Positions 27,712-35,338 of a stretch of 64,000 nt of DNA are shown here, one piece after another. The stretch covers positions 1 through 64,000 of the forward strand of contig VIKE01000002.1 of NCBI GenBank assembly GCA_008080565.1, in the 5' to 3' direction. The notes below the pieces were generated by a model. The model worked only from the letters and a program-made list of their open reading frames with translations. It was not told where the DNA came from and did no database searches. Positions within the stretch are counted from its first letter, which is position 1, and each line of letters starts with the position of its first letter. The position numbers and the translations under genes are program-made. The stretch is from Rhodocyclaceae bacterium (lineage in GTDB: Bacteria > Pseudomonadota > Gammaproteobacteria > Burkholderiales > Rhodocyclaceae).

Positions 27712-28656
27712 TTGAAACGCGTTCTCGTCGTCAACTATTCCCAAACCGGACAGCTTTCGGACATTACCGAGCGAGTCATCGCCCCCTTGCGGGCAGCCGG
27801 TCACGACGTTCACCTCGAAACACTGGTGCCGGAAACGCCGTTTCCGTTTCCCTGGCCAATCGTCGATTTTTTCGATGCTTTCCCCGAGTGCGTGCAGCTT
27901 GATGCACCACCGTTGCGCCAGCTGGGCATCGCCGCTGATACACCGTTTGATCTGGTAATCCTGACCTATCAGGTCTGGTATCTCTCCCCTGCGCTGCCGA
28001 TGACGGCATTCCTGCAAAGTGCCGAAGGCCGCCAGCTAATCCGCGGCAAACCGGTCATCACGCTGGTTGCCTGCCGCAACATGTGGCTGTCGGCACAGGA
28101 AACGATGAAGCAGTTGATTGCCGATGCCGGAGGCCGCCTGATCGATCATCTGGCGTTTACCGATCAGGGCCATCCGCTGGTCACCTTCATCACCACGCCG
28201 CGCTGGGTGTGGACCGGTAAAAAGGACGGCTTTCTTGGCTTGCCACCAGCCGGCGTGTCTCCCGAAGAAATTCGCCAGGCCGGTCGATTCGGAGTGGCCC
28301 TGGCCGACGGGCTGAACAATGACCAGGAAAAGACAAGCCAACCGATGCTGGCGGGCCTGCGTGCGGTCACCGTCAATCCAAGACTGGCGATCAGTGAACG
28401 TGCGGGCCGCCGGGCTTTTGGCGTCTGGTCAAAGCTGATTCGACTATTTGGACAGCGCGGCCAATGGAGGCGGCGTCCAGCCCTTTTGTTGTTTGTTCTT
28501 TACCTCATTACGCTGATCCTCACCGTCGTTCCAATAAGCCTGTTGTTACAATGGTTACTTTCCCCGCTGCTCAGACCCAAGCTTGAGCGGCTCAAGGCCG
28601 AACTGGAGCAGCCTTCCGGCTCGCAGGAATTCAACTTACAAAAATATGCACCCTAG
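27712..28656 (+). CDS. darA: DarA-like dialkylresorcinol condensing enzyme
   Basis: The 314-residue protein begins with a flavodoxin/NADPH-reductase-like Rossmann start ([20 protein letters not shown]) and contains the family stretches [20 protein letters not shown] and [20 protein letters not shown]. It ends with two hydrophobic helices ([20 protein letters not shown]) and a polar tail. DarA proteins condense two acyl-derived chains into a 2,5-dialkyl-cyclohexanedione/resorcinol core together with DarB. The probable start is TTG 27712, because the Rossmann strand follows at once; no strong ribosome binding site is seen. It overlaps darB by 11 bases and is first in a long operon. Confidence 0.8.
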
Positions 28657-29812
28657 CGGCAAGGTTTACATCAACGGCACATCGGCATTCCTGCCGAACG
28701 CGCCGGTCGGCAACGACGACATCGAAAAAGTGCTGGGCATGATTGCCGGCAAGCCTTCGCGCGCCCGGCGCATCGTGCTGCGTAACAACGGTATCCGTCA
28801 GCGCCACTACGCCATCGACCCGGTGACCGGTGCCCCCACCCACACCAATGCCCAGTTGACGGCTGAAGCCGTGCGCGGCTTGGCCTGCGAGCGTTTTTCC
28901 CCCGACGATATCGATTGCCTGGTCAGCGGCACGACCATTCCGGATCAGATCATGCCCAACCACGGCGTCATGGTGCATGGCGAACTGGGCATTCCGGCCT
29001 GCGAAGTAGTGTCGACCGCAGCCATCTGTGTGGCCGGCATCACGGCCCTCAAATACGCCTACATGAGCGTCCTTTCCGGTCTGGCCCGCAACGCAGTAGC
29101 AACCGCCTCCGAACTTTCCTCCAGCATCCTGCATGCGCGCAATTTCGCCGCCGAATCGGAACACCGGGTGGCCGAACTGGAAACCAATCCGGAAATCGCT
29201 TTCGAGAAGGATTTCCTGCGCTGGATGCTGTCCGACGGCGCCGGCGCCTTTCTGCTCCAGGATCAGCCGCGCCCTGACGGCTTGTCGCTGCGCATCGACT
29301 GGATCGACATCCTGTCGCAGGCCAACACGATGGAAGTCTGCATGTATGCCGGCGGCGAGAAGCTCGGCGACGGTTCGCTGCAGGGCTGGCAGCACTATTC
29401 TCAGGAACAGCGCGCGACGCTGTCGATTTTCTCGGTCAAGCAGGATGTGCGTTTGCTCAATGCCGAAGTGACCTACCAGACCATCGGCAAGTCGCTGGAA
29501 AAGATGCAGCGCACACGTGATGTAAAACCAGCCGATATCGACTGGTTCCTGCCACACATGTCCTCCGAGTATTTCCGCCAGCCGATGGCCGACTGCATGA
29601 CCGCGGTCGGCTTCCCGATTGCCCAGGAAAAATGGTTCACCAATCTGCAAACCAAGGGCAACACCGGTTCGGCTTCGATCTACATCATGATCGATGAACT
29701 GCTCAAAAGCGGCCGCCTCAAACATGGCGACCGCCTGCTTTGTTTCATCCCGGAAAGCGGCCGTTTCACCGGCTCGCTGATGCACCTGACGGCGGTCGAC
29801 CATGCTGGATAG
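28646..29812 (+). CDS. darB: DarB/StlD-like beta-ketoacyl synthase III
   Basis: The 388-residue protein is a thiolase-fold KAS III. The catalytic triad is present: Cys128 ([13 protein letters not shown]), His304 ([10 protein letters not shown]) and Asn339 ([11 protein letters not shown]). The family-specific start [20 protein letters not shown] and the stretch [20 protein letters not shown] fit the DarB/StlD group. DarB-type enzymes make and couple a beta-ketoacyl unit with a second acyl unit during dialkylresorcinol formation, with DarA. It overlaps darA at the start and the next gene at the end, both by 11 bases. Confidence 0.87.
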
Positions 29813-30197
29813 CGAAGTCCCGCAGGAAGGCAATAGCACGCTGGGCGGCCAGCGCAAGGCGATGTACGCACGCGGTGCCGACGGCAAGCTGCACATCGTC
29901 CAATCGGCCGGCTGGGAAGTCGAGGAAATCGTCACCCGGCAGGCCGTCGATGACCTCAACCGACTGGCCGAAGATGCCCGCCAGCGCGTCATCGCCGGCC
30001 AGACTTCGGCGCTCGAATACCACATGCACAAGGCGCGCATGGACGTGCCGTTGCTGTCGCAGGTCACCGGCCTGTGGCAATGGCGCATCCGCCGCCACTT
30101 CCGGCCCGACATCTTCCAGGGCCTGTCGGCCGGGCTGCTCAAGCGCTATGGCGACGCCATGGGCTTGACAGTCGAGCAACTCAAAAAGGCCGAATGA
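29802..30197 (+). CDS. Conserved hypothetical protein of the DAR-like operon
   Basis: The 131-residue protein has no recognised domain. It is soluble, with no signal peptide, and mainly helical after a short beta start ([20 protein letters not shown] then [20 protein letters not shown]). It has a basic stretch [19 protein letters not shown] and ends [20 protein letters not shown]. It overlaps darB by 11 bases and the BtrH-type gene by four, so it is embedded in the operon and probably acts on the same product. Function unknown. Confidence 0.75.
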
Positions 30198-31189
30198 TGG
30201 AATTCCAGCATAGCCACGCTTCCCATTGCGAAAGCGGCGTCATGTCGTCGATGCTGCGCCATCTCGGCCTGCCGATCTCGGAGGCGATGGCTTTCGGCCT
30301 GTCGTCGGCGCTCTCCTTCGCCTATCTGCCGATCATCAAGATCAACGGCCTGCCGCTGGTTGCTTACCGGATGCCACCGAAGTTCATCATCAAGGGCCTG
30401 CAGAAGCCGCTCGGCCTCAAGATGCGTTTCGAAACCTTCCGCAGCCCGGAAGCCGGCGAACAGCGCCTGAACGAACTGCTCGATGCCGGCCGACTGGTCG
30501 GCATGCAGACCTCGGTATTCTGGCTGCCCTACATGCCGGAAGACCTGCGCTTTCATTTCAATGCCCACAATGTGCTGGCCTATGGTCGCGATGCGGCGAG
30601 CGGCGACTACCAGCTATCCGACCCGGTGGTCGAAACGACGGTGACCTGTGCCCCGGCCGACTTGCGTCGCGCCCGTTTTGCCAAGGGCGTGCTGGCCCCG
30701 AAGGGGCTGCTTTACTACCCGGAAGGCAAGCCGTCCGAACCGGACTGGGCGAAAGTCCTGCCCAAGGCTATCAAGAAAACGACACGCATCCTGCTCGACT
30801 CACCGATCCCGATCATCGGCGTCCGCGGCATCCGTCGGCTGGCCAATGCCATTCAGCGCCTCGATGCAGCCGGTAACCCGGCCGCAGCCAAGATGTTCAT
30901 CGGCCAAGTCGTCCGCATGCAGGAAGAAATCGGCACCGGCGGCGGCGGCTTCCGTTTCATTTACGCCGCCTTCCTGCAGGAAGCGGCCGAGCGACTGGCT
31001 CGCCCGGCGCTCAATGAACTATCCGAAACGCTCGTCGACATCGGCGACGAGTGGCGCGAATTCGCGCTGTCCACGGCCCGCATGATCCGCGACCGCGAGC
31101 CGCTCAATCCGGCCAAACTGGCCGACAAGCTACGCGCCATCGCCGACCGCGAGCAGACCTTCTTCCGCGATCTGCGCCGCGCCGCCTGA
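30194..31189 (+). CDS. BtrH-type acyltransferase (BtrH_N/DUF4872-like)
   Basis: The 331-residue protein begins HSHASHCESGVMSSMLRHLG, matching the BtrH_N domain, a papain-like fold with a likely nucleophile Cys12. A partner His is at about 125 (FHFNAHNVLAYGRD), followed by an Asp (YQLSDPVVETTV). BtrH of butirosin biosynthesis moves an acyl group from an acyl carrier protein to an acceptor. Here a carrier protein is encoded three genes downstream, so transfer of an ACP-bound chain to an unknown acceptor is a reasonable guess. The C-terminal half is helical. Start ATG 30194 overlaps the previous stop. Confidence 0.72.
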   Translation: MMEFQHSHASHCESGVMSSMLRHLGLPISEAMAFGLSSALSFAYLPIIKINGLPLVAYRMPPKFIIKGLQKPLGLKMRFETFRSPEAGEQRLNELLDAGRLVGMQTSVFWLPYMPEDLRFHFNAHNVLAYGRDAASGDYQLSDPVVETTVTCAPADLRRARFAKGVLAPKGLLYYPEGKPSEPDWAKVLPKAIKKTTRILLDSPIPIIGVRGIRRLANAIQRLDAAGNPAAAKMFIGQVVRMQEEIGTGGGGFRFIYAAFLQEAAERLARPALNELSETLVDIGDEWREFALSTARMIRDREPLNPAKLADKLRAIADREQTFFRDLRRAA

Positions 31190-32100
31190 TGCTCGAGATC
31201 GATGGCGTTTCCTACCGCTATCGCGATGCCGCCGCCCCGGCGTTGCAGGACGTATCGCTCAACATTCCGGCTGGCGGCATTTACGGCCTGCTCGGCCCGA
31301 ACGGCGCCGGCAAGACGACACTCATTTCGCTGCTCGCCGGCTTGTTGACCGCAGCCGACGGCCGCATTTCGCTGAATGGCCAGCCACTAGCTGACGCCCG
31401 CGCCGCCAACCCGCGCGCCATCTCGCTGGTGCCGCAGGATTACGCCTTCTACCCGATGCTGACCGTCGCCGAGAATCTGGCCTTCTTTGCCGGCGCACTT
31501 GGCCTGGCGCACGGCGAGCGTCGGCAGCAGACCGACGCCGCCATCGCCTTCGCCCGGCTCGAACAAGTCACCGGCAAGCGCGCCGAACAACTCTCCGGCG
31601 GCCTGCGCCGGCGCCTCAACCTGGCCATCGGCTTGCTCGGCCGGCCGCAACTACTCCTGCTCGACGAACCCACCGTCGGCGTCGACCCGCAGTCGCGCAG
31701 CTTCTTGCTTGAATCCATCGCCGCTCTGCCCGCCGCCGGTACCACGGTGCTCTACACCAGCCACTACATGGAAGAAGTCGAGGCCATCTGCCAGCGAGTC
31801 GCCATCCTCGACCAGGGCCGCGTCCTGAGCGAAGGCACGCTCGACGACCTGCTGGCCACCGCCGACAGCAGCGCCGAAATCGAACTCGACCAGCCGCTGC
31901 CGCCCACTCTGGCCGAACGCTACGCTGCGACCGATCTCGGCCATTTCAAATTTGAGCTTTTTTTCCGGTCGACCGTGGAAGTGGCCCGTTTGCTCGAAGA
32001 GCTGGCCGAAGCTGGCTGCACCGTGCGCCAGCTACACGTCGGACGGCAAAATCTCGAACAGCTTTTCATGCGCCTGACCCGGCGCTCACTGCGGGACTAG
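31189..32100 (+). CDS. ABC transporter ATP-binding protein
   Basis: The 303-residue protein has Walker A GLLGPNGAGKTTLISLLAG, a Q-loop (ISLVPQDYAFYPMLTV), the signature AEQLSGGLRRRLNLAIGLLG, Walker B LLLLDEPTVGVDP and the H-loop TSHYME. It is a type 2 exporter ATPase of the NatA/DrrA kind. The start overlaps the BtrH-type gene's stop by one base and its permease follows eight bases later, so both serve the same operon product. Confidence 0.92.
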   Translation: MLEIDGVSYRYRDAAAPALQDVSLNIPAGGIYGLLGPNGAGKTTLISLLAGLLTAADGRISLNGQPLADARAANPRAISLVPQDYAFYPMLTVAENLAFFAGALGLAHGERRQQTDAAIAFARLEQVTGKRAEQLSGGLRRRLNLAIGLLGRPQLLLLDEPTVGVDPQSRSFLLESIAALPAAGTTVLYTSHYMEEVEAICQRVAILDQGRVLSEGTLDDLLATADSSAEIELDQPLPPTLAERYAATDLGHFKFELFFRSTVEVARLLEELAEAGCTVRQLHVGRQNLEQLFMRLTRRSLRD

Positions 32101-32107
32101 CCAAAAA

Positions 32108-33322
32108 ATGACCCGCCTGCTTGCCCTATGGACGAAGGAAACCCTGGCCTTGCTGCGCGACCGGCACGGGCTGGCCGCCCTTTTCGTCATGCCCGTCATC
32201 TTCATCCTGGTGATGACCATGGCGCTGCACGATGCCTTCATGCCCGGCGCGGCCATCGACGTGGCCTACGCCATTGTCGACCTCGACGGTAGCCCACATT
32301 CGCAATCGCTGGCCCGCCGCCTGGGCAAGACCGGCAGCTTCCGTCGCGTCGCCGATCCGGCGACGACCGATGCCGCCCGCGCCGACATCCGCGCCGGCCG
32401 CTACGCGCTGGCGCTGGTCCTGCCCAAGGGCTTCGGCGAACGCCTGCTGACCCCGGCCGGGGCCGATGGCCAGGCCACCGAGGCGCTGACCCTGATGGTC
32501 GATCCGACGCTGAACCCGGCGCTGCAACTCGCCTTCCGCAACCAGACCAGCGCCGCGCTAGGCATGCTGCGGGCCGACGAACTGACGCACAGCGCCGGCA
32601 AGCTGTTCGGCCTGCCGACGACGGCCCGTCCGGCCGAACGCGACTGGCCCGACGAAATCGTCAGCACCGCCGTGCAGAACGACCGCAGCATCCGTCCGCC
32701 CTCGTCGGTGCAGCAAAACGTCCCGGCCTGGCTGGTCTTCGCCATGTTCTTCGTCGTCATCCCGATTTCCGCCATCCTGATCACCGAACGCCAGCAAGGC
32801 ACGCTCCAGCGTCTGGCCGCCATGGGCGTGCCGTTCCGCCTCGTCCTGCTCGGCAAGCTAGTACCCTTTTTCGTCGTCAATCAAATTCAGGCCGTCCTGA
32901 TGGTTGCCGTCGGTATCTGGGGCGTCCCGCTGTTCGGCGGCGAAGCGCTCGTCATGCCGTCCGGCGCCGGGCTGTTCCATTGCTGGCTGGTTGCCGCCGC
33001 TGTCAGCCTGGCCGCTGTCGCCTGCGCCCTGCTCGTCGCCAGCGTGGCCCAGACGACGCAGCAGTCCACGATCATCGGCGGCGTTGGCAACATCCTCATG
33101 GCCGCCATCGGCGGCATCATGGTCCCCAAGTTCATGATGCCGGGGGCCATGCAGACCCTCGCCGAATGGTCGCCGATGGCCTGGGCGCTCAACGGCTTCC
33201 ACACCGTCATGCTGCGCCACGGCGACTTTGTCGCCATCCTGCCTGACCTCGTCAAACTCCTCGCCTGCGCGGCCCTGGCACTCGCCGCCGCGACCTGGCT
33301 CAACCGCCGCCAAAGCGCATGA
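32108..33322 (+). CDS. ABC-2 type exporter permease
   Basis: The 404-residue protein has one N-terminal transmembrane helix (LAALFVMPVIFILVMTMAL), a large extracytoplasmic domain of about 190 residues, and a C-terminal bundle of five helices (starting WLVFAMFFVVIPISAILITE). This is the YhhJ/NodJ-like ABC-2 topology used for export of lipids, polyketides and drugs. It pairs with the ATPase just upstream. Its end overlaps the carrier-protein start by four bases. Confidence 0.9.
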   Translation: MTRLLALWTKETLALLRDRHGLAALFVMPVIFILVMTMALHDAFMPGAAIDVAYAIVDLDGSPHSQSLARRLGKTGSFRRVADPATTDAARADIRAGRYALALVLPKGFGERLLTPAGADGQATEALTLMVDPTLNPALQLAFRNQTSAALGMLRADELTHSAGKLFGLPTTARPAERDWPDEIVSTAVQNDRSIRPPSSVQQNVPAWLVFAMFFVVIPISAILITERQQGTLQRLAAMGVPFRLVLLGKLVPFFVVNQIQAVLMVAVGIWGVPLFGGEALVMPSGAGLFHCWLVAAAVSLAAVACALLVASVAQTTQQSTIIGGVGNILMAAIGGIMVPKFMMPGAMQTLAEWSPMAWALNGFHTVMLRHGDFVAILPDLVKLLACAALALAAATWLNRRQSA

Positions 33323-33588
33323 CCACCGACCTCCGCCTCGCCCTCAAGACCCTGATCGTCGAAGCCTGCGACAAGGATTGCGATCCGGCCAGCATCACCG
33401 ACGACGAAATCCTCTTCGGGCCGGAAGCACCGCTCCAGCTCGATTCGCTTGATGCCCTGCAGGTCTCGATGGCGATCAAGAAAACCTACGGCTTGCGCCT
33501 GCCGGACAGCAAGGAAACCCGCCGCATCCTGTCCAGCGTCGCCAACATGGCCGAACACCTCGACGCCTGGCTGGCCAGCCGCGCATGA
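33319..33588 (+). CDS. Acyl carrier protein
   Basis: The 89-residue protein has the phosphopantetheine attachment Ser43 in LQLDSLDALQVSMAIKKTYG, the D-S-L motif of acyl carriers, with flanking acidic helices (EACDKDCDPASITDDEILFG). It would carry the growing or finished acyl chain for the operon's ketosynthases and the BtrH-type transferase. In Pseudomonas the third dar gene, darC, is likewise a carrier protein. It overlaps both neighbours by four bases. Confidence 0.88.
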   Translation: MTTDLRLALKTLIVEACDKDCDPASITDDEILFGPEAPLQLDSLDALQVSMAIKKTYGLRLPDSKETRRILSSVANMAEHLDAWLASRA

Positions 33589-34667
33589 CGCGTCCGGTCT
33601 TCATCGCCAATTCCGCCCTGCTCTGCGCCCGCGGCGATTCCCCGGCCACTGTTGCCAGCGCGCTGTGGAATGGCGAATGCAGCGCCGGCCAACGAAAACT
33701 GGGCGAGCGCTCCTTTCCCTTCTTTGGCTTGCCGCTCGATGAGTACGACTGGATGCTTCGCGCCGAGCAGGCCATCCGCCAGGTCGCCGGTCAGCTCGGT
33801 AAGCTTCCAGCCGAAACGCCACTGTTCGTAGCCTCCTCGTCATTCCAGATCGGCCATTTCGAGCAACTTGGCGCGCCGTTTGAACTGCCGGTCGCTGCCG
33901 CCTCGTTCAGCCGCCAAATCGGCGAATGGCTGGGCCTGAGCGGTGCCCGCACCAGCTTTTCCAACGCCTGCACCTCCGGCTTTTCTGCCCTCGACGCGGC
34001 GCGCAGCCTGATCGCCGCCGGACTGATCGACGACGCCATCGTCCTCGGCGTCGAACTCGCCAACGACAGCACGCTGGCCGGTTTCGCCGCCATGGAATTG
34101 CTCTCGCGCACGGCAGGCCGCCCCTTTGATGCCCGACGTGACGGCCTGGTCCTCGGCGAGGCAGTTGCTGCCGTGCACCTCAGCACCAAACCCGCCACCT
34201 GGCGCATCGCCGGGCTGCGTACCGGCCTCGACGGTTTTTCGACCACCAGCCCAAACCCTGATGGCTCCCGGATTGCCGATGTCACGGTCGACTGTCTAAA
34301 AGAGGCAAATTTGAAAGCCGCCGACATCGAGCTGATCAAGCTGCAGGCTGCCGGCTCGCCGGGCACCGACCTGGCCGAAGCCAACGCCCTGCGCAGCGTT
34401 TTCGGCCAGAACATGCCGCTGCTCCTCTCGCTCAAGCCGGGCCTCGGCCACACGCTGGGCGCCAGCGGCCTGGCCGAACTCGCCGCCCTGCTCGCCAGCC
34501 TCGATGCCGACAAGATCCCCGCCACAGCTGGTTTCTCCAAGGTCGATCCAGAAATCGCCCTGTTCCCGATGGTCGAGCGCAGCACCGAACACATCGAACG
34601 CGCCCTGCTCAACCTGATCGGTTTCGGCGGTGGTCTGGCCAGCCTGATCGTGGAGCGCCACGGATGA
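33585..34667 (+). CDS. Beta-ketoacyl synthase (KAS I/II fold) with an altered triad
   Basis: The 360-residue thiolase-fold protein keeps the nucleophile Cys129 (SNACTSGFSALDAARSL) and the second His289 (KPGLGHTLGASGLAELA). Where family members carry the first catalytic His (EAHGTGT) it reads KLQAAGSPGTDLAEANAL, with Ala at about 256. The FGG motif LIGFGGGLASLIV is present. It may condense, load or hand over acyl groups but probably not by the standard decarboxylative mechanism. It sits between the carrier protein and a half-length ketosynthase-like gene, overlapping both, suggesting a heterodimer with the latter. Confidence 0.87.
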   Translation: MTRPVFIANSALLCARGDSPATVASALWNGECSAGQRKLGERSFPFFGLPLDEYDWMLRAEQAIRQVAGQLGKLPAETPLFVASSSFQIGHFEQLGAPFELPVAAASFSRQIGEWLGLSGARTSFSNACTSGFSALDAARSLIAAGLIDDAIVLGVELANDSTLAGFAAMELLSRTAGRPFDARRDGLVLGEAVAAVHLSTKPATWRIAGLRTGLDGFSTTSPNPDGSRIADVTVDCLKEANLKAADIELIKLQAAGSPGTDLAEANALRSVFGQNMPLLLSLKPGLGHTLGASGLAELAALLASLDADKIPATAGFSKVDPEIALFPMVERSTEHIERALLNLIGFGGGLASLIVERHG

Positions 34668-35338
34668 TCAACCTGACTGCAGTACTCAGCCAAAGCTTCG
34701 CCCCCGCCGAACTGCCGGCCGCCGTACGCGCCGCCCTCGGCAAGCCGCTACGCCGGGCCGCGCCGCTCACCCAGTTGGCCTTGGTCGGCGCCCTGGCCTG
34801 CCTGCCTGCCGAGCGCCGCGCCTTGCCAACCGCCCTGCTCTGGCAATCGACCAGCGGCCCGCGCCTCGAAACACTGACCTTGCTCGATGAAGTCTGCTCT
34901 GGCAGCGCCGAGCCGATGCCTTACGATTTCCTCGCCACCCAGCCCGCCATCGCCGCCGCCCAGATCCAGAGCTTTCTGCCCGGCCTGCAAACGGCCACGC
35001 ACCTGCCGCTCGACTGCGCAGGCGTCGCGAACTGGTCGTTACTGCTCAGTCTGGCCATCGTCTGGCTCAACGAAGGTCGTTGCGCCCAGGTGCTGTGCGC
35101 CCAGCTCGACCACGCGGCCGATGTCGCCAGCGGCCACTGGCTGGCCTTGAGCCGCTCACCTCTTGAAAACTCGCCGGCCAGCCTCGATTTAATAAAAGAC
35201 ACAGCAAACGACGCTCTGCCCGACACACCCGACTTCCCGGCCCGCCTCGCCGAATGGCTGGTGCGTAACGACGGCCCGACGCTTTCCCTGCATTCTCCCG
35301 TCGCCATGAAGCTGACGGTAGAATTCACCCGACTCTAA
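34664..35338 (+). CDS. Short ketosynthase-like protein (chain-length-factor-like)
   Basis: The 224-residue protein resembles the N-terminal half of a thiolase-fold ketosynthase of the Ketoacyl-synt_2 kind: LTQLALVGALACLPAERRAL, TALLWQSTSGPRLETLTLLD, AQIQSFLPGLQTATHLPLDC, and the helix-strand LSLAIVWLNEGRCAQVLCAQ. No clear catalytic set is complete, and the C-terminal half with both His residues is missing. Such proteins in aryl polyene clusters pair with an active ketosynthase. It is the last gene of the operon. The family assignment is tentative. Confidence 0.65.
   Translation: MINLTAVLSQSFAPAELPAAVRAALGKPLRRAAPLTQLALVGALACLPAERRALPTALLWQSTSGPRLETLTLLDEVCSGSAEPMPYDFLATQPAIAAAQIQSFLPGLQTATHLPLDCAGVANWSLLLSLAIVWLNEGRCAQVLCAQLDHAADVASGHWLALSRSPLENSPASLDLIKDTANDALPDTPDFPARLAEWLVRNDGPTLSLHSPVAMKLTVEFTRL

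Follow-up and report, generated by a model that had tools for sequence, protein, structure and literature searches.

Nine closely packed genes on the + strand, at positions 27712..35338 of a 64,000-nucleotide stretch of DNA from a Rhodocyclaceae bacterium (contig VIKE01000002.1; the whole stretch is referred to as the window), very probably make up the dialkylresorcinol (DAR) half of an arcuflavin-type pigment pathway, and the BtrH-type protein encoded by the fourth gene, DarE, probably forms the ester that would join DAR to an aryl polyene. The gene set, the pathway and the type of product are already known. In Azoarcus sp. BH72 an operon described in 2014, darA,B,D,E,F,G,H,I,C,J,K (azo0293-azo0283), was assigned to the arcuflavin pathway (PMC3949708), and its listing gives darA as the DAR-aromatase, darB as the DAR-cyclase, darD as a conserved hypothetical gene, darF as an ATP-binding cassette (ABC) ATPase, darG and darH as small genes, darI as an ABC permease, darC as an acyl carrier protein (ACP) and darJ as a ketosynthase, followed by darK. 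When the two operons are compared by gene description, rather than with the BH72 sequence itself, the same nine genes are found here in the same order; they differ at the darF–darI junction, where BH72 has two extra genes, darG and darH, of the prevent-host-death and PilT types, and the present operon a gap of 7 bases. Gene names follow PMC3949708, so that the NCBIfam model DarG corresponds to darD of that paper and NCBIfam DarH to its darE.

Arcuflavin, characterized by mass spectrometry (MS) and feeding, consists of a DAR and a xanthomonadin-like aryl polyene, with an ester link predicted from MS fragmentation (PMC3949708). The polyene genes of BH72 lie in two other loci, unlinked to each other, and mutation of one gene in each abolished the pigment (PMC3949708); here too the polyene genes are found elsewhere in the genome, with a putative chorismatase-type start. 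Both types of cluster have also been reported for Dechloromonas aromatica RCB (PMC3949708), a likeness at the level of cluster content, and locus comparison shows the operon to be conserved in several Dechloromonas species. The flexirubin pathway is a further relative: the Bacteroidota locus L056 has DarA-like (33–34% identity) and DarB-like (50%) genes, together with matches above cut-off to the flexirubin DarG model (197.7 bits, cut-off 170) and to DarH. For the darD product of the present operon the same flexirubin DarG model gives 122.1 bits, below that cut-off. Flexirubin synthesis differs in starting from tyrosine via an ammonia-lyase (PMC3992019), whereas here a chorismatase is found in the polyene cluster.

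An earlier note on this DNA had linked the operon to DAR synthesis and foreseen a product beyond plain DAR, and the match with arcuflavin agrees with both. The same note held that the operon differs from described clusters and has no aromatase; the first view fails, the nine genes being published in the same order for BH72, and darA itself is listed there as the aromatase (PMC3949708). The gene set has thus already been described with a known product, the circumstance that the note itself had named as refuting its reading. The apparent novelty falls away, and the operon takes its place in a pigment pathway already known; still useful is a testable assignment of the arcuflavin/flexirubin joining step to DarE, which is not made in the available text of PMC3949708 or PMC3992019, while NCBIfam already names the family an acyltransferase.

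Conservation of the operon and co-occurrence with polyene genes

Searching named genomes with gene 4 as query turned up 45 loci. All nine genes stand in order in 29 of them, the other 16 being without at least one gene and many of these on short contigs; pyrG precedes darA in 29 of the 45, and the order A-B-D-E is kept in every one of the 41 loci that contain darA, darB and darE. The nine-gene order is far beyond chance. Most loci are labelled as Dechloromonas, Azonexus, Rhodocyclaceae and Betaproteobacteria, with the near relative L015 labelled Gammaproteobacteria, and more distant ones as relatives of Thauera and Azoarcus, as Simiduia, Myxococcales and Bacteroidota. Homologues of arcT and arcS follow the dar operon in the Azoarcus-type loci L046 and L048, where the distance from the end of darE to the start of darI is 1,980 and 1,648 bases, respectively, compared with 922 bases here; the extra space would leave room for the darG/darH pair.

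Co-occurrence was evaluated with curated models in 397 genomes of Pseudomonadota, a survey that is a single draw and in which four of the 13 positives share a family (f16) and two a genus (g27). DarH and DarB score above cut-off in one and the same set of 13 genomes. The polyene ketosynthase exceeds its cut-off in 95 of the 397, including all 13 DarH genomes (hypergeometric probability 4e-9, relatedness being ignored). Matches below cut-off add three genomes for DarH and seven for DarB, and these sets do not overlap: the former are absent from the DarB list and the latter from the DarH list. Polyene markers were also checked in 15 genomes chosen from the 45 loci. All 11 close relatives have the polyene ketosynthase above cut-off together with a chorismatase; Simiduia has the ketosynthase above cut-off and no chorismatase match, and in the Myxococcales and two Bacteroidota genomes the ketosynthase is below cut-off (370.8, 327.3 and 273 bits), again with no chorismatase match. 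Homology, gene order and co-occurrence together support the proposed gene identities and the type of pathway.

The proposed polyene half of the pathway

Contig C109 of this genome, on which some of the reading frames were profiled, carries candidate genes for the polyene half (counterparts of the regulator, arcF, arcL, arcO and arcU lie outside the search). The polyene ketosynthase matches NF006618 at 545 bits (cut-off 407) and the chorismatase matches PF21168 at 129.8 bits (cut-off 27); a FabA-like dehydratase (PF07977, 27.6 bits, cut-off 23) is the sole dehydratase above cut-off. Profiles further identify an AMP-ligase (PF00501), a lipid-A-type acyltransferase (PF03279), a LolA_3 protein, an MMPL exporter, two carrier proteins, a half-ketosynthase (PF13723), a piece of a short-chain reductase (SDR), a polysaccharide deacetylase, a methyltransferase, a glycosyltransferase, an acyltransferase, a MipA protein, a Trp_halogenase-like protein and a Na/H exchanger, so that most, though not all, of the Azoarcus arc gene list is accounted for. 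The statement in the earlier note that no ketoreductase is present thus fails at the level of the genome, given the reductase piece, dehydratase and polyene ketosynthase on this contig.

The polyene reductase gene of C109 is split between two frames near the 5' end (L009:18081-18762), by an assembly error or a real break. On contig C54 of this genome (L011:5256-12006), genes for ketosynthase, carrier protein, dehydratase and reductase occur a second time, as judged from the sequence and from ketosynthase matches, next to two oxidoreductases that by their sequence resemble phytoene-desaturase-type flavoproteins.

DarE as a candidate for the ester step

The predicted model of DarE (predicted local distance difference test, pLDDT, 92.8) matches AziU2/U3, CtaG and CcbD across most of its length, with template-modelling (TM) scores of about 0.6–0.75; a sequence search of the PDB with DarE gave chance-level matches only. 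CcbD forms an amide. In an alignment of 34 hand-picked rows out of 58 found, to which the operon's own sequence was added, Cys12, His125 and Asp143 of DarE are invariant (34 sequences), and the variants listed in CtaG entries, at C11, H128 and D144, are in line with these three residues. BtrH is an ACP:aminoglycoside acyltransferase with a papain-like domain (PMC10318531), and for CtaG the proposed reaction moves hydroxybenzoate between two carrier proteins, the second of which bears the peptide that receives it (PMC6772006). DarE thus shares with this group of acyltransferases a fold of nearly whole length and the Cys/His/Asp set, and is on these grounds a good candidate for ester formation; it would differ from CtaG, whose proposed acceptor is a peptide on a carrier protein, and from CcbD in making a phenyl ester. 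The earlier note had a BtrH-type transferase attaching a chain, and the structural model and alignment fit DarE as the likely joining enzyme. In the open-access literature no title or abstract was found that credits a BtrH-type protein with forming the ester.

In the proposed pathway DarB, as ketosynthase and cyclase, would condense two fatty-acid-derived acyl chains, and the flavodoxin-like DarA would aromatize the ring to give a 2,5-dialkylresorcinol. The polyene cluster of C109 would start from 3-hydroxybenzoate made by the chorismatase, load it by means of the AMP-ligase and build the aryl polyene on carrier proteins. Cys12 of DarE, together with His125 and Asp143, would then receive the polyene acyl group from the carrier protein that bears it, and DarE would pass the group to a phenolic OH of DAR to form the ester, and the ABC pair DarF/DarI may move DAR or the finished pigment.

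Points against the assignment and alternative readings

Several observations weigh against this pathway and against the role given to DarE. Here the arcuflavin-type product is predicted from genes, and for BH72 the available text of PMC3949708 reports no dar mutants, the tie between dar and arcuflavin resting there on a DAR fragment that matches the DAR of heterologously expressed dar proteins. The earlier note had hung its DarA and DarB assignments on profile searches: DarB passes NF005293 and falls below the narrower model resorcinol_DarB (497.1 bits, cut-off 550), and DarA is without a Pfam or NCBIfam match although its family is well conserved. On C109 the chorismatase, a candidate for a XanB2-type enzyme, scores below cut-off with TIGR04444 (236.7 bits, cut-off 325), and the other possible dehydratase resembles ApeP only weakly (15.9 bits, cut-off 27). 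Contamination of the genome is listed as 6.13%, and C109 could in principle be foreign; this doubt is eased by the near relative L013, in which dar (~0.77 Mb), polyene ketosynthase (2.14 Mb) and chorismatase (2.15 Mb) are all on a single contig of 3.46 Mb. In the phylum of L053, where 6 of 188 genomes have DarH above cut-off, four of the six have DarB below cut-off (best 92 to 112 bits), which indicates that DarH is not always paired with DAR. Finally, in the flexirubin proposal for Chitinophaga pinensis the joining step was assigned to the ligase-like FlxW (PMC3992019).

This last proposal belongs to the alternative that survives best, which is nevertheless unlikely: the pathway is the same, the ester is made by a FlxW-like ligase or by acyltransferases of the polyene cluster, and DarE is accessory, for example in clearing stalled acyl-carrier proteins. 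It competes with DarE for the ester step only and leaves the pathway as it is. Two acyltransferase-like genes on C109 would be available for such a role, and in the available text of PMC3949708 darE is labelled just a BtrH-like peptidase; on the other side, the fold and conserved Cys/His/Asp of DarE are those of carrier-protein-dependent acyltransferases, and darE keeps its place behind darA, darB and darD in the 41 loci described above.

The operon might instead make a free DAR or a signalling resorcinol, with the BtrH-type gene acylating something else and a product unrelated to polyene pigment. The DarA and DarB of C. pinensis did give DAR on heterologous expression (PMC3992019), and the four DarH genomes with DarB below cut-off contain darD-E-F-I loci (L053:9494-15653, L130, L131 and L132) with no darA or darB nearby, whereas the remaining two DarH genomes of that phylum have DarB beside DarH. 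This reading is nonetheless improbable, as free DAR was undetectable in Azoarcus extracts in which the DAR-polyene hybrid was present (PMC3949708), and DarH, DarB and polyene ketosynthase coincide without exception in the 13 Pseudomonadota genomes. The acceptor of no known kind in a novel acyl-resorcinol pathway, as suggested in the earlier note and in keeping with the lack of reductase or polyene genes in the operon itself, is highly improbable now that the operon is found to be published as part of a DAR-polyene pathway (PMC3949708), with most known polyene genes on C109 and the markers in 11 of 11 close relatives.

Two candidate classifications were also rejected: a plain DAR pathway, on the co-occurrence of DarH and polyene ketosynthase with DarB, and a novel cluster class without a reductase, on the reductase piece and dehydratase of C109.

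The DarE loci in genomes without recognizable DarB are a further lead. In three of the four, genes for a carrier protein resembling DarC and for a ketosynthase are present as well, and the fourth ends at a contig edge. Tentatively, darD-E-F-I with carrier protein and ketosynthase might be a portable cassette for acyl transfer and export, whose acceptor would be DAR in Proteobacteria and Bacteroidota and a different one in the genome of L053 and the three others; the evidence at hand leaves this somewhat doubtful.

Operon layout and gene identities

The open reading frame listing and junction check confirm nine open frames in the order given in Table 1, joined by short overlaps, as the earlier note had described. 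Genes 1–5 overlap by 11, 11, 4 and then 1 base, the last value applying if gene 5 starts at ATG 31189 (chosen from the translation; the junction listing has CTG at 31186); after the 7-base gap before gene 6, the overlaps are 4, 4 and 4. Most of the gene labels proposed earlier are upheld by profiles, the exceptions being DarA and the half-ketosynthase: genes 1 and 9 have zero matches to Pfam or NCBIfam models in the profile search, and the half-ketosynthase nature of DarK can be inferred at most. Cys129 and His289 of DarJ are invariant in 33 sequences (the residue alignments of DarJ and DarB took in loci numbered below L058 only). The operon is flanked by pyrG upstream on the opposite strand and by a thioredoxin-like gene downstream, both names being read from the sequence.

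Table 1. Genes of the dar operon in the window, with the features on which each name is based.
Gene	Product or family	Position	Strand	Basis
darA	putative DAR aromatase	27712..28656	+	flavodoxin-like domain and long C-terminal helices; TTG start uncertain
darB	StlD/DarB ketosynthase-cyclase	28646..29812	+	NF005293, 607.5 bits (cut-off 450)
darD	NCBIfam DarG family	29802..30197	+	NF053536, 169 bits (cut-off 70)
darE	BtrH-type acyltransferase (NCBIfam DarH)	30194..31189	+	NF053550, 472.8 bits (cut-off 300); BtrH_N and DUF4872
darF	ABC transporter ATP-binding protein	31189..32100	+	PF00005, 115.5 bits
darI	ABC-2 type permease	32108..33322	+	PF12698, 125.5 bits
darC	acyl carrier protein	33319..33588	+	PF00550, 21.3 bits (cut-off 20.8); NF006617, 46 bits, below cut-off 70
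darJ	diverged ketosynthase	33585..34667	+	PF02801, PF00109
darK		34664..35338	+	conserved position after darJ in relatives

DarA and DarB

The putative identification of gene 1 as DarA is based on its place before darB, its conservation reaching as far as Bacteroidota (in an alignment of 31 hand-picked rows of 46 found, with the operon's own sequence added) and its flavodoxin-like fold. The predicted model (pLDDT 91.5) has its best fold matches in WrbA and flavin mononucleotide (FMN) flavoproteins; matches to receptors such as CB1 are probably due to a fused flavodoxin, and a PDB sequence search with DarA gave chance-level matches only. The long C-terminal helices look membrane-embedded from the sequence. 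A flavin-dependent oxidation would fit the name DAR-aromatase, flavin binding being suggested by the modelled fold. A plasmid search found DarA-like proteins, labelled hypothetical, on the Streptomyces plasmids NZ_CP109562, NZ_CP108465 and NZ_CP108315 (38–40% identity), the matches covering 80% of the query with the C-terminal part excluded.

Among solved structures, DarB is nearest in sequence to StlD (5gk0, 528 bits), and its residues Cys128, His304 and Asn339 are invariant in 42 sequences. Seven frames of 644–658 amino acids with a DarB-like domain below cut-off (302–364 bits) were found in genomes of the same order (L099-L101 and L103-L106), two of which also hold a true DarB.

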